Below are positions 1,684 through 19,783 of a DNA stretch of 28,061 nucleotides, piece by piece. The notes under the pieces are model-generated. The model was not told the DNA's origin. It searched no databases and saw only the letters and a program-made list of their open reading frames with translations. The DNA comes from a virus: IMG/VR virus record IMGVR_UViG_3300020281_000104, positions 1 to 28,061 of that record. One strand, written 5' to 3'. The position numbers and the translations under genes are program-made. Numbering within the stretch: the first letter of the stretch is position 1; each line of letters starts with the position of its first letter.

Positions 1684-1713
1684 TTGACATATGGTAGTCA
1701 AATGTAATATGTA
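1684..1713 (+). promoter_or_regulatory. Candidate rightward early promoter
   Basis: TTGACA (1684-1689) is a perfect -35 box. A -10 TATGTA lies 18 bases on (1708-1713), with TAATAT at 1705-1710 as an alternative at a poor 15-base spacing. The -35 overlaps a TTGAC-N8-GTCAA inverted repeat, which could be an operator. It is correctly placed to drive the early operon starting at 1937. Confidence 0.4.
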
Positions 1714-1748: not shown

Positions 1749-1806
1749 TATACAGTATATAATCCTTCTACTGTCCCATAGGACAGAAGGATATATACAG
1801 TATATA
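1749..1806 (+). promoter_or_regulatory. Twin palindromic repeats flanking a bulged hairpin (H0)
   Basis: TATACAGTATATA occurs at 1749-1761 and again at 1794-1806; its core TATACAGTATA is nearly palindromic, like a dimeric operator site. Between the copies is a hairpin: TCCTTCT (1763-1769) pairs with AGAAGGA (1785-1791), three unpaired bases ACT (1770-1772), GTCC/GGAC (1773-1776/1781-1784), loop CATA. A TATAAT box overlaps at 1758-1763. The 7 bp + 3-base bulge + 4 bp + tetraloop plan matches the hairpins at 1881, 2115, 2425 and 2723. Confidence 0.55.
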
Positions 1807-1880
1807 CTTTTAAATACAGCCATATGTAGTTTAATTACATACCTATGAACTGTTATGAAATCTATACAATAACAATATAT

Positions 1881-1930
1881 CTTTCTGTTCGAAAGACTGC
1901 TGACTTGCGAGTCAGCCTTCCGACAGAAAG
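1881..1930 (+). promoter_or_regulatory. Bulged hairpin H1 directly upstream of the 1937 gene
   Basis: CTTTCTGT (1881-1888) pairs with ACAGAAAG (1923-1930). CGAAAG pairs with CTTCCG with one mismatch (1890-1895/1917-1922). Three bases ACT (1896-1898) bulge, then GCTGACT pairs with AGTCAGC (1899-1905/1910-1916) around a TGCG loop. The 3' arm itself supplies part of the AAAGGA ribosome site, so folding could control translation of the next gene. Confidence 0.6.
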
Positions 1931-1936
1931 GATATT

Positions 1937-2107
1937 ATGATAAATAATATAATTACTATGAAGTGGCGTTATCCTAGATATTTACGCTGGTACTGGGGTA
2001 GAAATAAATATAGATTACAGCGTAAAGCACGTTTCCAACTATGGCGTTTAAAGATAACTATATTAATTTATAGCGATGCTTTACGCCTTTGGTTAAACGA
2101 TAAGTAA
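1937..2107 (+). CDS. Small basic Trp/Arg-rich protein, 56 aa
   Basis: First gene of the early operon and not recognised. ATG follows AGAAAGGA at good spacing; an internal ATG at 1958 is possible. The protein is strongly basic and aromatic (many W, R, K and Y; for example WRYPRYLRWYWGR at residues 9-21), with a C-terminal helix that looks amphipathic. This composition would suit nucleic-acid or membrane binding, or a small host-takeover protein, but that is inference. Hairpins H1 and H2 bracket the gene. Confidence 0.6.
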   Translation: MINNIITMKWRYPRYLRWYWGRNKYRLQRKARFQLWRLKITILIYSDALRLWLNDK

Positions 2108-2114
2108 TTATCAA

Positions 2115-2149
2115 TCAGTATTCTGCTGACACTTGTGTCAGAATACTGA
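2115..2149 (+). promoter_or_regulatory. Bulged CTTG hairpin H2
   Basis: TCAGTATT (2115-2122) pairs with AATACTGA (2142-2149); CTG (2123-2125) bulges; CTGACA pairs with TGTCAG (2126-2131/2136-2141) around CTTG. The outer stem extends as TCA/TGA with one mismatch. It is followed by the small palindrome GATACTTATTAAGTATC and then the AAAGAAAGGAA ribosome site of the 2195 gene. Confidence 0.6.
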
Positions 2150-2194
2150 CTGATACTTATTAAGTATCTTATCTATTTAAAGAAAGGAATTACA

Positions 2195-2416
2195 ATGGAT
2201 AAATTTAAAACTAAAAAACTATGTACAGTATGTATGTATCCAATCGTCTTTAAGAAAGACGCTTATTGGAAACCAGCCAACAATGGCAAAACATACCCAT
2301 TAAACATACACTATGGCGAATGTTCGACCAAAGTGTATCTTAATGGCGAAAATGCTTGGGAAGTATCCAAGCGTAATGTTTCCAAGGTACAACAACTTAA
2401 ACTTATGTTTAGGTAA
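2195..2416 (+). CDS. Small zinc-finger-like protein, 73 aa
   Basis: Not assignable to a named family. C10-x2-C13 and H39-x3-C43 (HYGEC) give four plausible zinc ligands in a treble-clef or zinc-ribbon arrangement; the rest is basic (K/R-rich at both ends). ATG follows AAAGAAAGGAATTACA. It is probably a nucleic-acid-binding or host-interaction factor, one of several Cys-cluster mini-proteins in this operon. It stands between hairpins H2 and H3. Confidence 0.75.
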   Translation: MDKFKTKKLCTVCMYPIVFKKDAYWKPANNGKTYPLNIHYGECSTKVYLNGENAWEVSKRNVSKVQQLKLMFR

Positions 2417-2424
2417 TTATCTTA

Positions 2425-2457
2425 CTGCCTTCAGCAGACTCTTGAGTCTGAAGGCAG
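2425..2457 (+). promoter_or_regulatory. Bulged CTTG hairpin H3
   Basis: CTGCCTTC (2425-2432) pairs with GAAGGCAG (2450-2457); AGC (2433-2435) bulges; AGACT pairs with AGTCT (2436-2440/2445-2449) around CTTG (2441-2444). A ribosome site GAAAGGA and the ATG at 2480 follow within about 20 bases. Confidence 0.62.
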
Positions 2458-2479
2458 AAAGATAGTTATAGAAAGGATA

Positions 2480-2563
2480 ATGATGATAACTATGGGAATA
2501 GATAAATATTGTATGTGGTGTGAACTACCAGAATATGACAAAGATTGTCATTGCTGGGAGTAA
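2480..2563 (+). CDS. Cys-rich micro-protein, 27 aa
   Basis: ATG ATG after a strong GAAAGGATA ribosome site; ends two bases before the next start. The product has CMWC (C11, C14) and CHC (C23, C25), enough to bind one metal ion. Small size leaves some doubt, but the ribosome site, the tight spacing to the following gene and the motif shared with its neighbours argue that it is translated. Confidence 0.5.
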   Translation: MMITMGIDKYCMWCELPEYDKDCHCWE

Positions 2564-2565
2564 TA

Positions 2566-2712
2566 ATGAATAATGTAGTATTTTGCACGAAGTGCAATAA
2601 AAAATGTACCGATTCGCCTTGGCGAACTTGGGTTGGCTATGAATCAGTTGACCCAGTTGTATATGCTTATGTATGTAGTATCGAATGCTACAATAAATCG
2701 GATATGTTTTAA
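2566..2712 (+). CDS. Zinc-finger-like micro-protein, 48 aa
   Basis: C7-x2-C10 (CTKC) with C14, then C37-x3-C41 (CSIEC) form a treble-clef-like ligand set; the middle holds WRTWVGY. The ATG is two bases after the stop of the 27-residue gene, so it is probably translationally coupled to it. The spacing of the cysteine pairs resembles MYM/FCS-type fingers, but the family is not certain. Confidence 0.6.
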   Translation: MNNVVFCTKCNKKCTDSPWRTWVGYESVDPVVYAYVCSIECYNKSDMF

Positions 2713-2722
2713 TATGTATCAC

Positions 2723-2757
2723 TCAGTTGTCTGTAGACTCTTGAGTCAGACAACTGA
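2723..2757 (+). promoter_or_regulatory. Bulged CTTG hairpin H4
   Basis: TCAGTTGTCTG (2723-2733) pairs with CAGACAACTGA (2747-2757); TAG (2734-2736) bulges; ACT pairs with AGT (2737-2739/2744-2746) around CTTG (2740-2743). It precedes the 2821 gene by about 60 bases of very AT-rich DNA (ATATATATAGATAATATATATG). Confidence 0.62.
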
Positions 2758-2820
2758 CTGATATATATAGATAATATATATGTCAAGACATAAAAACGAA
2801 ATATAATGAAAGGAGTTATT

Positions 2821-3671: not shown

Positions 3672-3712
3672 TACTTCTGTCGTTGTTAACTTATATATCA
3701 ACGACAGAAGTA
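3672..3712 (+). promoter_or_regulatory. Long perfect hairpin H5 with conserved loop
   Basis: TACTTCTGTCGTTG (3672-3685) pairs perfectly (14 bp) with 3699-3712; loop TTAACTTATATAT (13 bases). TATATAAGAAAGGAAATTATG follows at once: the stem ends about six bases before the ribosome site of the 3729 gene. No T-run, so not a terminator. Confidence 0.65.
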
Positions 3713-3984: not shown

Positions 3985-4578
3985 ATGCCTAATTGGACAT
4001 ATAATACAGTAGAAATAACAGGTTCTGTAGAAAATATACAGAACTTTTTGGACTTAGTAAAAGTTACTGATGACAAAGGTGTTAGTTGGTATGACTTTAC
4101 ACAATGTAATCCAATACCAGATGACTTAAGAAATATACACCAAGGTGGTGCAACCATTGACGGTGTAAGATACGATGCTTGGTATGAAGACGAAGATGGT
4201 AAAAGACCTATGATGGATATGGTAAAAGATAGATTAATAAAAGACTATGGTACATATCAACCAATTGACTGGCAGTATCTTAACTGGGGTACAAAATGGG
4301 GTGATTGTGATACAACTTTAATATCAGATACTATTACAAAAGATAATAGAGAAGTTGTTTTTCAATTTGATTCAGCATGGGGAGAACCATTTAGATTACT
4401 TAATGATATAGCAATTAAATTTAACTTAACAATTGTTAATTCATGGGATATAGAATTAGGTAATGGTGATGGTATATCAGAGTATCCTTGGACACCAGAA
4501 GATACTGAGCGTATATATAACGAGTATGAAAAATCAATGCAAGAAATGCATGAAAAAGTTAAAGAGATAACAGAATAA
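3985..4578 (+). CDS. DUF1281/Api92-like (YubB ferredoxin-like) protein, 197 aa
   Basis: The N-terminus MPNWTYNTVEITGS is the hallmark of the Api92/YubB (DUF1281) family, usually M-x-N-W-x-x-N, found on phages and plasmids. The family has a ferredoxin-like alpha/beta fold; its molecular function is not established. Other family-like features are the WYDF and CNPIP segment (about residues 34-43), repeated Trp residues and the central AWYEDED and NWGTKW motifs (NWGTKW about 99-104). A strong AGAGGAGG ribosome site lies within the preceding gene. The stop overlaps the next ATG by one base. Confidence 0.8.
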   Translation: MPNWTYNTVEITGSVENIQNFLDLVKVTDDKGVSWYDFTQCNPIPDDLRNIHQGGATIDGVRYDAWYEDEDGKRPMMDMVKDRLIKDYGTYQPIDWQYLNWGTKWGDCDTTLISDTITKDNREVVFQFDSAWGEPFRLLNDIAIKFNLTIVNSWDIELGNGDGISEYPWTPEDTERIYNEYEKSMQEMHEKVKEITE

Positions 4579-4784
4579 TGTCATCAGAATATATATATGA
4601 ATATGTTGATGAAAATTTAAAACAAGATGAAAACAGTTTAACTGTAGATTTTTATTTTAAATCCGATGTTAGTAAGGACGAAGCGATAGAATTAATAGAT
4701 AAGATAATAGACAAAGTTGACGCTAAAAAAATGATAGGACATAAACCTACAATTTTTGTTAAATCACCATGGTGTGATGAATAA
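4578..4784 (+). CDS. Hypothetical acidic protein, 68 aa
   Basis: Starts in the TAATG overlap with the DUF1281-like gene, so the two are translated together and may act together. Acidic, with a likely alpha/beta pattern (SLTVDFYFKSDVSKDEAI; later TIFVKSPWC). No family recognised. Last gene before a 330-base gene-free stretch. Confidence 0.72.
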   Translation: MSSEYIYEYVDENLKQDENSLTVDFYFKSDVSKDEAIELIDKIIDKVDAKKMIGHKPTIFVKSPWCDE

Positions 4785-4800
4785 ATGTGGCTGAAACGCA

Positions 4801-4999
4801 TGGCTATCTACATGCTGGAATTAGTACTAAGCCAGCTATCACGCAAGTGATAACCATATGTAGATAGCTTGTAGCACATAGTTTGAAACTTGATAGTTAA
4901 GTCTGAACAAGTACAGATAATTGTGTGTTACAAGCTATTTATGTATTAGATACTACGAACTGTATGCTATGGCGTGCTGTAGTTAGGTGGAAGTATCTA
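4801..4999 (+). ncRNA. Structured non-coding RNA candidate (three-way junction plus two stems)
   Basis: The 4785-5113 stretch has no supported gene. Helices seen by eye: P1 GCTATCTACAT (4803-4813) with 4858-4868, 11 bp perfect. Inside it, P2 GCTGG/CCAGC (4814-4818/4832-4836) and P3 TATCAC/GTGATA (4837-4842/4847-4852) capped by GCAA, a GNRA tetraloop. P1, P2 and P3 abut without unpaired bases on the 5' side. P4 is 13 positions long (4866-4878/4924-4936) with one G.U pair and shares 4866-4868 with P1, so the two helices compete at their ends. P5 TAGATACT/AGTATCTA (4947-4954/4992-4999) has an inner AACT/AGTT stem. A short GGAAGG/CCTTCC pairing (5033-5038/5063-5068) and hairpin H6 follow. It could be a free RNA or a long regulatory leader for the 5114 gene. 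Confidence 0.6.
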
Positions 5000-5066
5000 C
5001 AAAGATAGCAATATACGTACACAACTGATGGGGGAAGGAGAAGTACATAGCCCTGTTCACAACCTT

Positions 5067-5108
5067 CCTTCTGTCAGTTGTTTACCTTTATATCAACTGA
5101 CAGAAAGG
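5067..5108 (+). promoter_or_regulatory. Long hairpin H6 with conserved loop
   Basis: TTCTGTCAGTTG (5069-5080) pairs with CAACTGACAGAA (5094-5105), 12 bp; the flanking CC/GG also pair if one A is bulged. The loop TTTACCTTTATAT is 13 bases and nearly the same as in H5. The 3' arm runs into the AGAAAGGAA ribosome site of the 5114 gene, so folding should limit its translation. Confidence 0.65.
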
Positions 5109-5113
5109 AAACT

Positions 5114-5554
5114 ATGAATCATATACACGTAACTCAAGTACCTAACAAGGAATATGAAGTACAAGTGGCATTCTATAATATTGATAGTCATGATGACAAA
5201 CCTACATTTAATGAACCAGATGTATGGCAAGTTATAGTGCCAAGTAGTAGTGCTATGAACGCAATTACTACAGCAATGCATATCATTCAGATAAGCAGAG
5301 CAGAAACAATGACGAACTTCATGCAACCTGTTGATGGTAAAATGACGTTTACAATTGACGAAATAGAAACAATAAGACAAGCAGCTGAAGACGCAGATGT
5401 CTTTAAAGCTTGGCTTGATATAGAACCTACATCTATACAAGTATGTTTAGTAGATGACGTAGAGAAACTACGTAGCATGACACTAGGTGTACTTAGCCAG
5501 AAAATGGAAGACGTAGGTAATGAAGCAGAAGAATACCTAAAGGAGCAAGAATGA
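5114..5554 (+). CDS. Hypothetical early protein, 146 aa
   Basis: Start chosen at ATG 5114, seven bases after AGAAAGGA; the frame is open back to 5078, but that segment is hairpin H6. The first 85 residues look like a beta-rich domain (HIHVTQVPNKEYEVQVAFYN, then VWQVIVPSSS); the C-terminal half is acidic and helical. No family recognised. The last bases overlap the next ATG (ATGA). The upstream structured RNA could regulate it. Confidence 0.72.
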   Translation: MNHIHVTQVPNKEYEVQVAFYNIDSHDDKPTFNEPDVWQVIVPSSSAMNAITTAMHIIQISRAETMTNFMQPVDGKMTFTIDEIETIRQAAEDADVFKAWLDIEPTSIQVCLVDDVEKLRSMTLGVLSQKMEDVGNEAEEYLKEQE

Positions 5555-17655: not shown

Positions 17656-17837
17656 TACTTTCTAAATCCTATAGTAAGTAACCATATACATAGTGTAATT
17701 ATAGTAGCTAAACCAGTTATTTGCTGTGCAGAACCAGTTAATGTAAGTGTAGCAATAACTAAACCAACCAAAGTCCAACTAAGGTTTAATGTTTCTTTTA
17801 TTGCTTCTACTACCCACGACCATAATTTTTTTATCAT
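17655..17837 (-). CDS. Two-helix membrane protein, holin-like, 60 aa
   Basis: Two hydrophobic helices (about 17-35 and 40-57) with a short turn (GSAQQ), Lys at both ends and Trp near the membrane edge: small class II holin-like topology. ATGA overlap with the large secreted protein. It could be a second holin, an antiholin or a membrane accessory. Confidence 0.65.
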   Translation of the reverse strand: MIKKLWSWVVEAIKETLNLSWTLVGLVIATLTLTGSAQQITGLATIITLCIWLLTIGFRK

Positions 17838-19783
17838 AAGCTTCTCCTAAATACAAAAGCTGCCATGCTAGCTATTCTAGTCAGAATAACTGGGACTACA
17901 ACTTCTTGTGCTTTTTCCTTCTGGTCTTGTGTCATATCATTAGATATATTAGAAAGGTTTATGTCTGTTATATTGTCAAGGTCTATTAATACTTCTAATG
18001 GATTCTCTATAAATGCTTCGTATTGTACCTCTGTAACAACATCAGCTAGTGTATAGTCTTCTACGTCTGCATTTTCTACAGCTCGTTCTACGTATTCTTC
18101 TACAGCTTCTGCAACTAATTCGTCTGATTTAACAACCTCTGCAATAATTTCAACGTCTTTAGTTTCAACTTGTAATACCTCCGCAACTACTTCTACTTGT
18201 TCTTCAGTAAGTTCTTCTACATCCTCTATAGCTTCCTCAACTACAGCCTGTATGACCACCTGTGTTTCTTCTGTGGCTTGGGATAAGTTTTGTACACCAA
18301 TGTCATTAACTTCTTCGAGTACTTCTATAACTTCATCAGTTGTAACTTCTTCAATAATAATGTCTTCAACAATATTTTCAACTTCTTCAACCTCAACAAT
18401 AACTTCTTCTTCAGTAAGTTTTATAGGTTCTTCTACAACATCTTCCTGTATTGGTTCATCCAAAATTTTCTCATCAATAATCTCAGGTAAAATTTCGGCC
18501 TCATCAGTATCAAGTTCTTCTTCAAATTCTGTATCCCAATCATCAATATCTTCATCCTCTTCTATAATTATTACTTCTGGAATATCTTCAAACGTAAATT
18601 CTGTTTCATCAAATGAAAATTCTTCTTCAAGTTCCTTAACGTCAATCTCGATTTCCTCTTCAATAATATCTTTTTTGGTAGTTTCGATAACAAATTCATC
18701 TTTAATATCTGTATCTTCATTTTTATCGACCACTTGAAGTACCATATCATCATCTTCAAAAAACTCTGTTTCGGTATCTCTTGTATCTCCTCGTGGTATC
18801 TCTTCGTGTAACTCATCTTCTTCCATAATATCACAATCTCCACGTTCTATCTGTGCATCAGTCATATAACAACCAAATTTATCTTCATTAGCTTTACGTT
18901 CATTATCACGTTCTACTGTGCCATCTTCTATTTCATGTTCTTGATATTCAGCTTCTGTACCATCATCTAAAACTACGACAAACATTTCAGGTTCAGGTGG
19001 TGGAGGTGGTGGTTTAGGTGGCTCAGGTGGTGGTGGAGGTAAAGTAGTTGTAGTTGTTGTAGTAGTTGTAGTTGTTGTAGGCATAACATATTTAAAAGAT
19101 ATGTCATCTAATAATGACCAGTCATTAATTGTAAGTGTAAAACTTTCTATAAATGTATCTAAAGTATCGTATATATTGTAAACAACTGTTTCAAGCATAG
19201 TTTCTAAATTAGAATTGCTTTGTGCATCTACTACATTTTCTTGTATAGTTTCATCTTTATGTGTATATGTAACTGTGCTTTCATTATTTAATGCACCTAT
19301 AGTAAAACCTACTTCGTATATATCTATTTCTAATTCTTCTTCATCTACTGTTGTTGTTTCAGGTAATATAAATGTATAGTCCTCACTATCATTTCCATGT
19401 TGCAAATAATGCAAGTTCATACAAAAATCTGTACAACCAAACTGACCATCATAATGATTATTAATAACAATATTATTTTCTATTTCATTACCATCTAGGT
19501 CTAATTCATCTACAGGTAATTCTATATCTGTAGATTGTTCGTAAGTAGGTATAGTAGTTGTAGTACTTGTAGTAGATGTAGTAGTAGTTGTAGTAGTTTC
19601 TTTTTCTAATTCTTCAGTTTCTTCTTCTAAAGGACCATCAAAAGTTTCTACTTCCTCTGTTTCTCCTGGGATAGTAGTAGTAGTGCTAGTAGGTACAGTA
19701 GTGGTAGTAGTAGTTGTATCGTTTTCATTAGCATATAAAGGTAATGGAAGCAGTAATATAACTGCGAATAAAACTCGCAGCAT
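17834..19783 (-). CDS. Large secreted Thr/Pro- and Glu-rich protein, 649 aa
   Basis: Signal peptide MLRVLFAVILLLPLPLYA (1-18). Three Thr tracts (23-37, 63-77, 236-247), the last followed by a Pro-rich hinge (PPPPPEPPKPPPPPP, 249-263). Such Thr/Pro linkers are typical of actinobacterial exported proteins. A beta-like segment with paired Cys (117, 121) lies at about 85-230. From 265 to about 600 it is extremely acidic, with degenerate V/E/A-rich helical repeats (EVVAEVLQVETKDVEIIAEV). The C-terminus has a hydrophobic amphipathic stretch (VVVPVILTRIASMAAFVF) and two Arg, possibly membrane-seeking. It lies between small membrane proteins in the lysis region, so an envelope-spanning lysis or surface role is possible. 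No family recognised. Confidence 0.75.
   Translation of the reverse strand: MLRVLFAVILLLPLPLYANENDTTTTTTTVPTSTTTTIPGETEEVETFDGPLEEETEELEKETTTTTTTSTTSTTTTIPTYEQSTDIELPVDELDLDGNEIENNIVINNHYDGQFGCTDFCMNLHYLQHGNDSEDYTFILPETTTVDEEELEIDIYEVGFTIGALNNESTVTYTHKDETIQENVVDAQSNSNLETMLETVVYNIYDTLDTFIESFTLTINDWSLLDDISFKYVMPTTTTTTTTTTTTLPPPPPEPPKPPPPPPEPEMFVVVLDDGTEAEYQEHEIEDGTVERDNERKANEDKFGCYMTDAQIERGDCDIMEEDELHEEIPRGDTRDTETEFFEDDDMVLQVVDKNEDTDIKDEFVIETTKKDIIEEEIEIDVKELEEEFSFDETEFTFEDIPEVIIIEEDEDIDDWDTEFEEELDTDEAEILPEIIDEKILDEPIQEDVVEEPIKLTEEEVIVEVEEVENIVEDIIIEEVTTDEVIEVLEEVNDIGVQNLSQATEETQVVIQAVVEEAIEDVEELTEEQVEVVAEVLQVETKDVEIIAEVVKSDELVAEAVEEYVERAVENADVEDYTLADVVTEVQYEAFIENPLEVLIDLDNITDINLSNISNDMTQDQKEKAQEVVVPVILTRIASMAAFVFRRSL

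Follow-up and report, generated by a model that had tools for sequence, protein, structure and literature searches.

The early region of a marine phage

The window analysed here is the whole 28,061-base stretch of a marine phage record in IMG/VR, which is of the linear class. The TerL gene occupies 3-1388 of the minus strand (PHROG terminase, E=3.4e-52), which also carries the structural genes, and the small early genes form a rightward operon from 1937 that is followed by an AAA ATPase gene (5872) and further genes. The first early gene (1937..2107, plus strand) encodes an arginine-rich protein of 56 aa for which no homologue was found in the other loci, and the gene at 2195..2416 (plus strand) encodes a Cys-containing, zinc-like protein of 73 aa. 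Upstream of all the hairpins described below, TTGACA-15-TAATAT at 1684..1710 (plus strand) is a candidate early promoter, a call that is a resemblance only; a TTGACAT.TGGTAGTCA-like sequence is kept in the alignment of relatives. At 17834-19783 the window encodes an acidic protein of 649 aa with long threonine runs (TTTTTTTVPTSTTTT).

No nucleotide relatives were found among annotated phages, and the TerL relatives in such phages are distant (22-29% identity, mostly Streptomyces phages, among the matches listed). Related loci were gathered from IMG/VR by way of the zinc protein (7 loci), the ATPase (80) and TerL (80), and 105 loci with a total of 1.2 Mb were left after removal of redundancy. 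The genome matches comprise a MAG labelled Gammaproteobacteria and another labelled Actinomycetota, so no host is assigned.

Hairpins at the cistron junctions

The original prediction described five intergenic hairpins whose 5' arm has a bulge of three bases, and all five are present where it had placed them, on the plus strand. The first (1755..1798) lies in the 5' leader of the early operon and reads ATCCTTCT-ACT-GTCC CATA GGAC-AGAAGGAT; it is retained in relatives with bulge and loop altered (GCT, CTTG, TATA). The second (1881..1930) stands immediately 5' of the first early gene, conforms to the common plan apart from one A.C mismatch, and takes AGAAAG of the next Shine-Dalgarno sequence, AGAAAGGA, into its 3' arm. 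The third (2109..2155), TATCA a TCAGTATTCT-GCT-GACA CTTG TGTC-AGAATACTGA c TGATA, begins 2 nt past the stop of 1937-2107 and precedes the zinc protein gene, which separates it from the fourth (2413..2469), TATCTT a CTGCCTTCA-GCA-GACT CTTG AGTC-TGAAGGCAG a AAGATA, whose base contains the stop codon of 2195-2416. The fifth (2712..2768), TATCA c TCAGTTGTCT-GTA-GACT CTTG AGTC-AGACAACTGA c TGATA, follows directly on the stop of 2566-2712 and lies 5' of the 2806/2821 gene. The last three begin at a stop codon or no more than about 10 nt from one. Two related intergenic hairpins, each with a 13-nt tip, are found further along the plus strand: one at 3672..3712, 5' of the 3729 gene (14-bp stem, tip TTAACTTATATAT), and one at 5069..5105, 5' of the 5114 gene (12-bp stem, tip TTTACCTTTATAT). 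These two copies, the link to stop codons, and the mismatch with the TATC...GATA stem beyond it had all been missed by the original prediction.

Some neighbouring features deserve mention in their own right. Just 3' of the third hairpin, at 2149-2194, there is a second small inverted repeat, GATACTTA T TAAGTATC, seen in relatives as GATAC TTAT GTATC or GATAC TTAAT GTATC; its GATA also closes the third hairpin, so that it could offer an alternative pairing to the hairpin base. A hairpin occupies the junction 5' of the 5114 gene in most lineages inspected, and a hairpin or a terminator is there in most lineages. The gene itself (5114-5554) encodes a fast-evolving early protein whose family is not recognised, in 25 of the 25 genomes compared. 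It is preceded by a long, strongly folded non-coding region (4784-5068), of which one stem type, AGCTTGTAGCACA...TGTGTTACAAGCT, recurs in the loci L069, L074 and L078; the L078 counterpart also has a T-arm-like GGTTCGAATCC, and an ARAGORN search for tRNA finds none there.

The hairpins are real and far beyond chance. Their RNA folding z-scores are -5.0, -5.2, -5.5, -7.0 and -5.3, and for each of the five none of 200 dinucleotide shuffles folded as well. A strict search of all 28,061 bases of the window (Watson-Crick pairs only, outer stem of at least 8, inner stem of at least 3, loop of 3-5, bulges of 1-6 nt on either arm) gave four matches, at 1762, 2115, 2425 and 2723, every one with a 3-nt bulge on the 5' arm, and no other bulge size or 3'-arm bulge, when shuffled versions of 1400-2800 gave 0.003 matches on average. 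Among the relatives the count is 144 strict 5'-bulge hairpins, with bulges of 3-4 nt, against 0 in dinucleotide-shuffled copies, and the suspicion that shuffled sequence might yield such bulged stems as often is answered for window and relatives alike. Rfam 15 has no match in the window at gathering score, and exact tip patterns searched across IMG/VR matched 10 stretches, all within the same phage family.

About 100 related marine phage loci possess the same element at the cistron junctions of their early operons. In those loci that include both TerL and the ATPase, the element is confined to the early region, with 108 strict copies in the TerL-AAA interval (264 kb) and 0 in the remaining 560 kb. 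Most copies in relatives lie 5' of a gene in the same direction. The original prediction noted that four of the five lie shortly before a ribosome site, but the steadier landmark is the stop codon upstream: among the relatives the hairpin starts 7-16 nt past it in 37 of 43 measurable copies, and the distance to the next start codon varies from 11 to 194 nt.

A conserved stalk with a fixed mismatch

The three-base 5' bulge and the general stem plan of the original prediction hold; the placement of the bulge and the length of the stems needed revision. The bulge may slide by 1-2 nt, and the register common to the family is CT-NNN-GAC...GTC-AG. The stems at 2115, 2425 and 2723 extend further than proposed, through a 1x1 mismatch into another 5-10 pairs (TATC...GATA). 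Forty distinct copies possess the TATC...GATA base; in 37 of them a single 1x1 mismatch comes next and then at least 7 Watson-Crick pairs. Of these 37, 33 measure 16-17 positions from base to bulge, with 4-5 inner pairs beyond. L063 has 7-nt loops and no bulge, yet the same base.

Selection on the structure, which had been claimed from one genome, is supported by compensatory changes in related phages, with 94.6% of alignment cells paired and double changes in 12 of 18 pairs. The covariation score is 0.350, whereas shuffles score 0.108 +/- 0.014 and slid partners never exceed 0.075, and a larger model-fitted alignment, which includes some antisense copies, agrees (0.387 vs 0.108). The element is also strand-specific. 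The bulge belongs to the 5' arm of the coding sense, and when a covariance model built from 26 copies was run against 100 loci, the coding sense outscored the antisense at every site matched on both strands. The 1x1 mismatch takes the forms C.C, A.A, T.T, T.C, A.C, C.A and A.G and is never a pair. On the coding strand it is never G.U, while the 7 cases of A.C or C.A would be G.U if read on the opposite strand, which is a modest argument that the molecule of the coding strand is the one that matters. G.U within the stems is very rare (11 of 990 pairs) without clear asymmetry between sense and antisense. Because it is almost absent on either strand, it is uninformative as a test of the RNA strand; that test was dropped and the mismatch asymmetry used instead. 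Such near-absence of G.U is odd for a constraint acting on RNA only, and we can explain it only in part. A purely mutational origin of the perfect arms by quasi-palindrome correction is disfavoured, since the bulge and the 1x1 mismatch would presumably have been corrected as well.

A different structured RNA candidate is found in nearly all relatives at 1484-1655, between TerL and the early operon. It has 18 consensus pairs, 8 with compensatory changes, and invariant G.U pairs on the plus strand, which fits better than the minus strand. It has no match in Rfam, and it makes use of G.U, unlike the hairpin stems.

Tips shared within a genome

The main new result, missed by the original prediction, is a crossed pattern of conservation in which the outer stems follow the site and the tips, that is bulge and loop, follow the genome. 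The junction of the zinc gene provides a clear example: its outer stem, TCAGTATTCT...AGAATACTGA, is kept across lineages, and its tips vary by lineage (GCT-GACA CTTG, GCT-GACT TAAA, TCC-GACCA CTTG). The TCC-GAC tip occurs three times in L027, TTCC-GACT-AYGAM characterizes L019, L020 and L114, and L073 has ATAAAAA tips, with TTTATAAAAA at several sites; L117 has TCC-TTAC-GGA, and L146 and L035 have AATATG. Between L057 and L058, which are 96% identical, the bulges of two separate hairpins read TTAC and TTCC, the same C-to-A change in both.

The same trend is seen in the pooled copies. Outer-arm identity is 0.57 for the same site in different genomes and 0.47 for different sites in one genome. 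The longest tip word in common averages 4.72 within genomes and 3.64 between them (0 of 1000 permutations), and bulge identity within genomes is 0.61 against 0.49 when permuted within site class (1 of 5000 permutations), a moderate pooled difference, and in both tests related genomes are treated as independent. The outer arms, too, resemble one another within genomes a little more than expected (3.91 vs 3.65), and recombination or copying between sites could account for part of the likeness of tips. A stalk that follows the site and a tip that follows the genome is the pattern expected if the tip is read in trans. In L033 (5225-5277) and L036 (2782-2833) the TTCC bulge is able to pair with a loop GGAA, giving two competing folds.

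A possible RNA operator and its alternatives

We tentatively favour, at somewhat short of even confidence, the reading that the hairpins are a multi-site cis-acting RNA operator at the early leader and the cistron junctions, the tip of which would be read by a trans-acting factor. Tips common within a genome and different between genomes suggest that something acting in trans reads the RNA tip, and this reader is probably encoded by the phage. Copies of one operator would be set in the leader and at the cistron junctions of the early polycistronic mRNA, where the two long arms would form a rigid stalk of about 20 bp in which mismatch and bulge are fixed. A sequence-specific factor, most likely a phage RNA-binding protein, would recognise what is exposed at the tip, namely the bulge, the GAC/GUC inner stem and a loop of the CUUG or UUAUG type, and with the same tip class on all copies in a genome one factor could act on many early cistrons together. 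The most likely outcome would be that the fate of the mRNA is controlled at each junction, be it through processing, through the 3' end or the stability of the upstream cistron, or through access to the downstream one. We infer RNA as the acting form, a factor that reads the tip, the phage origin of that factor, and this outcome from the patterns of the sequences. The idea of RNA elements between early genes was already part of the original prediction, and of the three functions it offered (RNase processing sites, mRNA stabilisers, binding sites for an RNA-binding protein) a binding site for a trans-acting factor is the best supported, because tips agree within genomes and differ between them.

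Its suggestion of a nearby zinc mini-protein as the RNA binder fares badly: the 2195 protein is absent from L033 and L058, which bear hairpins, and present in six of six hairpin-less genomes, and it is unlikely to be the reader. The arginine-rich 1937 protein was rejected as a general reader, its homologue being found in no other locus. Phyletic profiles and the tracking of proteins against tip classes gave no clear candidate; those that best track bulge type are the 5114 product and a small early protein, and fast-evolving proteins in general rank high. Phage CsrA (PF02599) was found in none of 9 records. The reader may be any uncharacterised early protein, or a host factor that differs between hosts.

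Among the alternatives, processing by RNase III is unlikely, yet it survives best. Here the host enzyme would cut irregular hairpins of about 20 bp, as in the early mRNA of T7, where R1.1 is cut at a single bond (PMC4858673), and it would separate the cistrons and leave protected 3' ends, with the conservation of tips secondary. The stalk, with its 16-17 positions below the bulge in 33 of 37 copies and the 4-5 inner pairs above it, amounts to about two helical turns, the copies lie between cistrons just past stop codons, and the below-threshold near-misses in Rfam are microRNA precursors, themselves RNase III-type substrates, at scores far under gathering. To our knowledge RNase III is not expected to recognise a tip sequence, and the sharing of tips within genomes is therefore left unexplained. 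Moreover, lineages of the L063 type keep the base without the bulge, and a phage-encoded RNase III was found in 0 of 9 records.

Less probable still are terminator-like hairpins without U-run, at which transcription would stop or pause behind each early gene, perhaps only with a factor's help, or which would be targets in the N/boxB style of a phage antiterminator that reads the tip, N being known to read a hairpin loop in nascent RNA (PMC3526286). The placement directly past stop codons would suit them, and L061, L065, L078 and L124, which are without bulged hairpins, have U-run intrinsic terminators at comparable junctions (with loop words, TTATTAATTTAG and TTATTAAGTTAG, common between sites). 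In L117 a U-run terminator (4489) even bears the tip TCC-TTAC-GGA of the hairpins without U-run. Together with the terminators of the sister lineages, this common tip places the element in an end-of-cistron context. In the window, however, the absence of a T-run noted by the original prediction is confirmed: none of the five sites has a hairpin with a run of at least five T, and the one such case within the window interval, at 4020, falls inside coding sequence. A series of terminators along a single operon, with no obvious promoter behind each, would shut off the genes beyond them; moreover, two copies lie 5' of the first gene, and no N-like feature is established. Given this end-of-cistron context we favour the RNA operator, set at the cistron junctions, over its two main rivals, processing by RNase III and termination that depends on a factor.

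Quite improbable are passive stabilisers or translational insulators, which would shield the ends of mRNAs or separate adjacent ribosome sites with no specific reader: high stability, position between cistrons and arms that vary freely while pairing holds would be as expected, but the fixed 5' bulge, the enforced 1x1 mismatch and the common tips are unneeded for stability, and perfect stems would be stabler. Most doubtful of all is a role in DNA, with single-stranded or cruciform hairpins used for attC-like cassette exchange or ssDNA initiation and early genes swapped between them, because despite the near-perfect Watson-Crick pairing with almost no G.U and the persistence of junction hairpins while the small early genes differ between relatives (L004 is without 2462-2712, a segment between two hairpins), a tyrosine recombinase (PF00589) was found in 0 of 9 records, three of them of 39-43 kb, with 14 of 14 controls positive (a helper phage or the host could supply one), strict copies are restricted to the early interval and always in coding orientation, and the mismatch is kept on the coding strand when the complement would sometimes wobble.

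Returning to the RNA operator, a bolder extension of it is possible but doubtful: a phage-wide RNA address code, in which each lineage would carry its own tip on many early junctions, and a matching co-evolving phage factor would control the early regulon and be unable to act on that of a competing relative. It would resemble the specificity of lambda N and boxB, but repeated along the operon. If the operator reading is true, a multi-copy RNA operator family would be added in a widespread group of uncultured marine phages, and the lineage-specific tips on conserved stalks would be a built-in natural experiment. It would make it practical to look for an RNA-binding factor with a specificity that follows the tips, and orthogonal pairs of RNA and protein, comparable to those of MS2 or boxB, would be in prospect. 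Even as RNase III or terminator sites, the hairpins would represent a well-conserved punctuation of mRNA that differs between close relatives.

Comparison with known systems

By layout, the inverted repeats of mycobacteriophages and Microbacterium phages appear nearest to these hairpins; by mechanism, the nearest would be the RNase III sites of T7, lambda N/boxB and the T4 gp43 operator. The extended start-associated sequences (ESAS) of Cluster K mycobacteriophages have 17-bp arms with an arm consensus for each genome, and each is set right 5' of a start-codon SAS of 13 bp (PMC3203893); Microbacterium phages of clusters EF and EG have comparable inverted repeats (PMC7302621). As in our family, these occur in many gaps of one phage, their sequence class varies by phage, and their function is likewise not established. 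The hairpins described here differ in that the arms vary from site to site and the tip is common, bulge and mismatch are fixed, and the hairpin follows a stop codon. Accordingly, no arm consensus unites the sites of a genome (the outer-arm identities being the 0.47 and 0.57 given above), and the next start is 11-194 nt away. The intrinsic terminators of the sister lineages L061, L078 and L124 occupy the same kind of junction, 7-20 nt past stops, and have loop words in common, but they have the U-runs which the bulged hairpins are without.

Integron attC sites also show a structure more conserved than the sequence, extrahelical bases and a cassette-like gene order (PMC3053210), whereas our hairpins are biased to the coding strand, no integrase was found in the 9 records, and it is tip and base that are conserved, not integrase boxes. 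In T4, early mRNA is subject to post-transcriptional control at intergenic regions, where the operator of gp43, a single site, has a conserved loop sequence and RegB recognises GGAG/U motifs, on which structure hinders it (PMC3014915). The intergenic setting in early mRNA is alike, and the hairpins are many where the gp43 operator is one.

Lambda boxB/nut with N provides the likeness of an RNA hairpin loop read by a phage factor, and several phages have their own specificity in systems of this type. The present family differs by its many copies per operon and its long stalk, and no N-like reader was found; the first gene of the window does encode an arginine-rich protein, for which the other loci gave no homologue. 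Finally, the early RNase III sites of T7 (R1.1 and others) lie between early cistrons as irregular hairpins of about 20 bp, and our hairpins are predicted to have such an irregular helix in the same position; the difference lies in the tip, which here is specific to the lineage and common to the copies within a genome.
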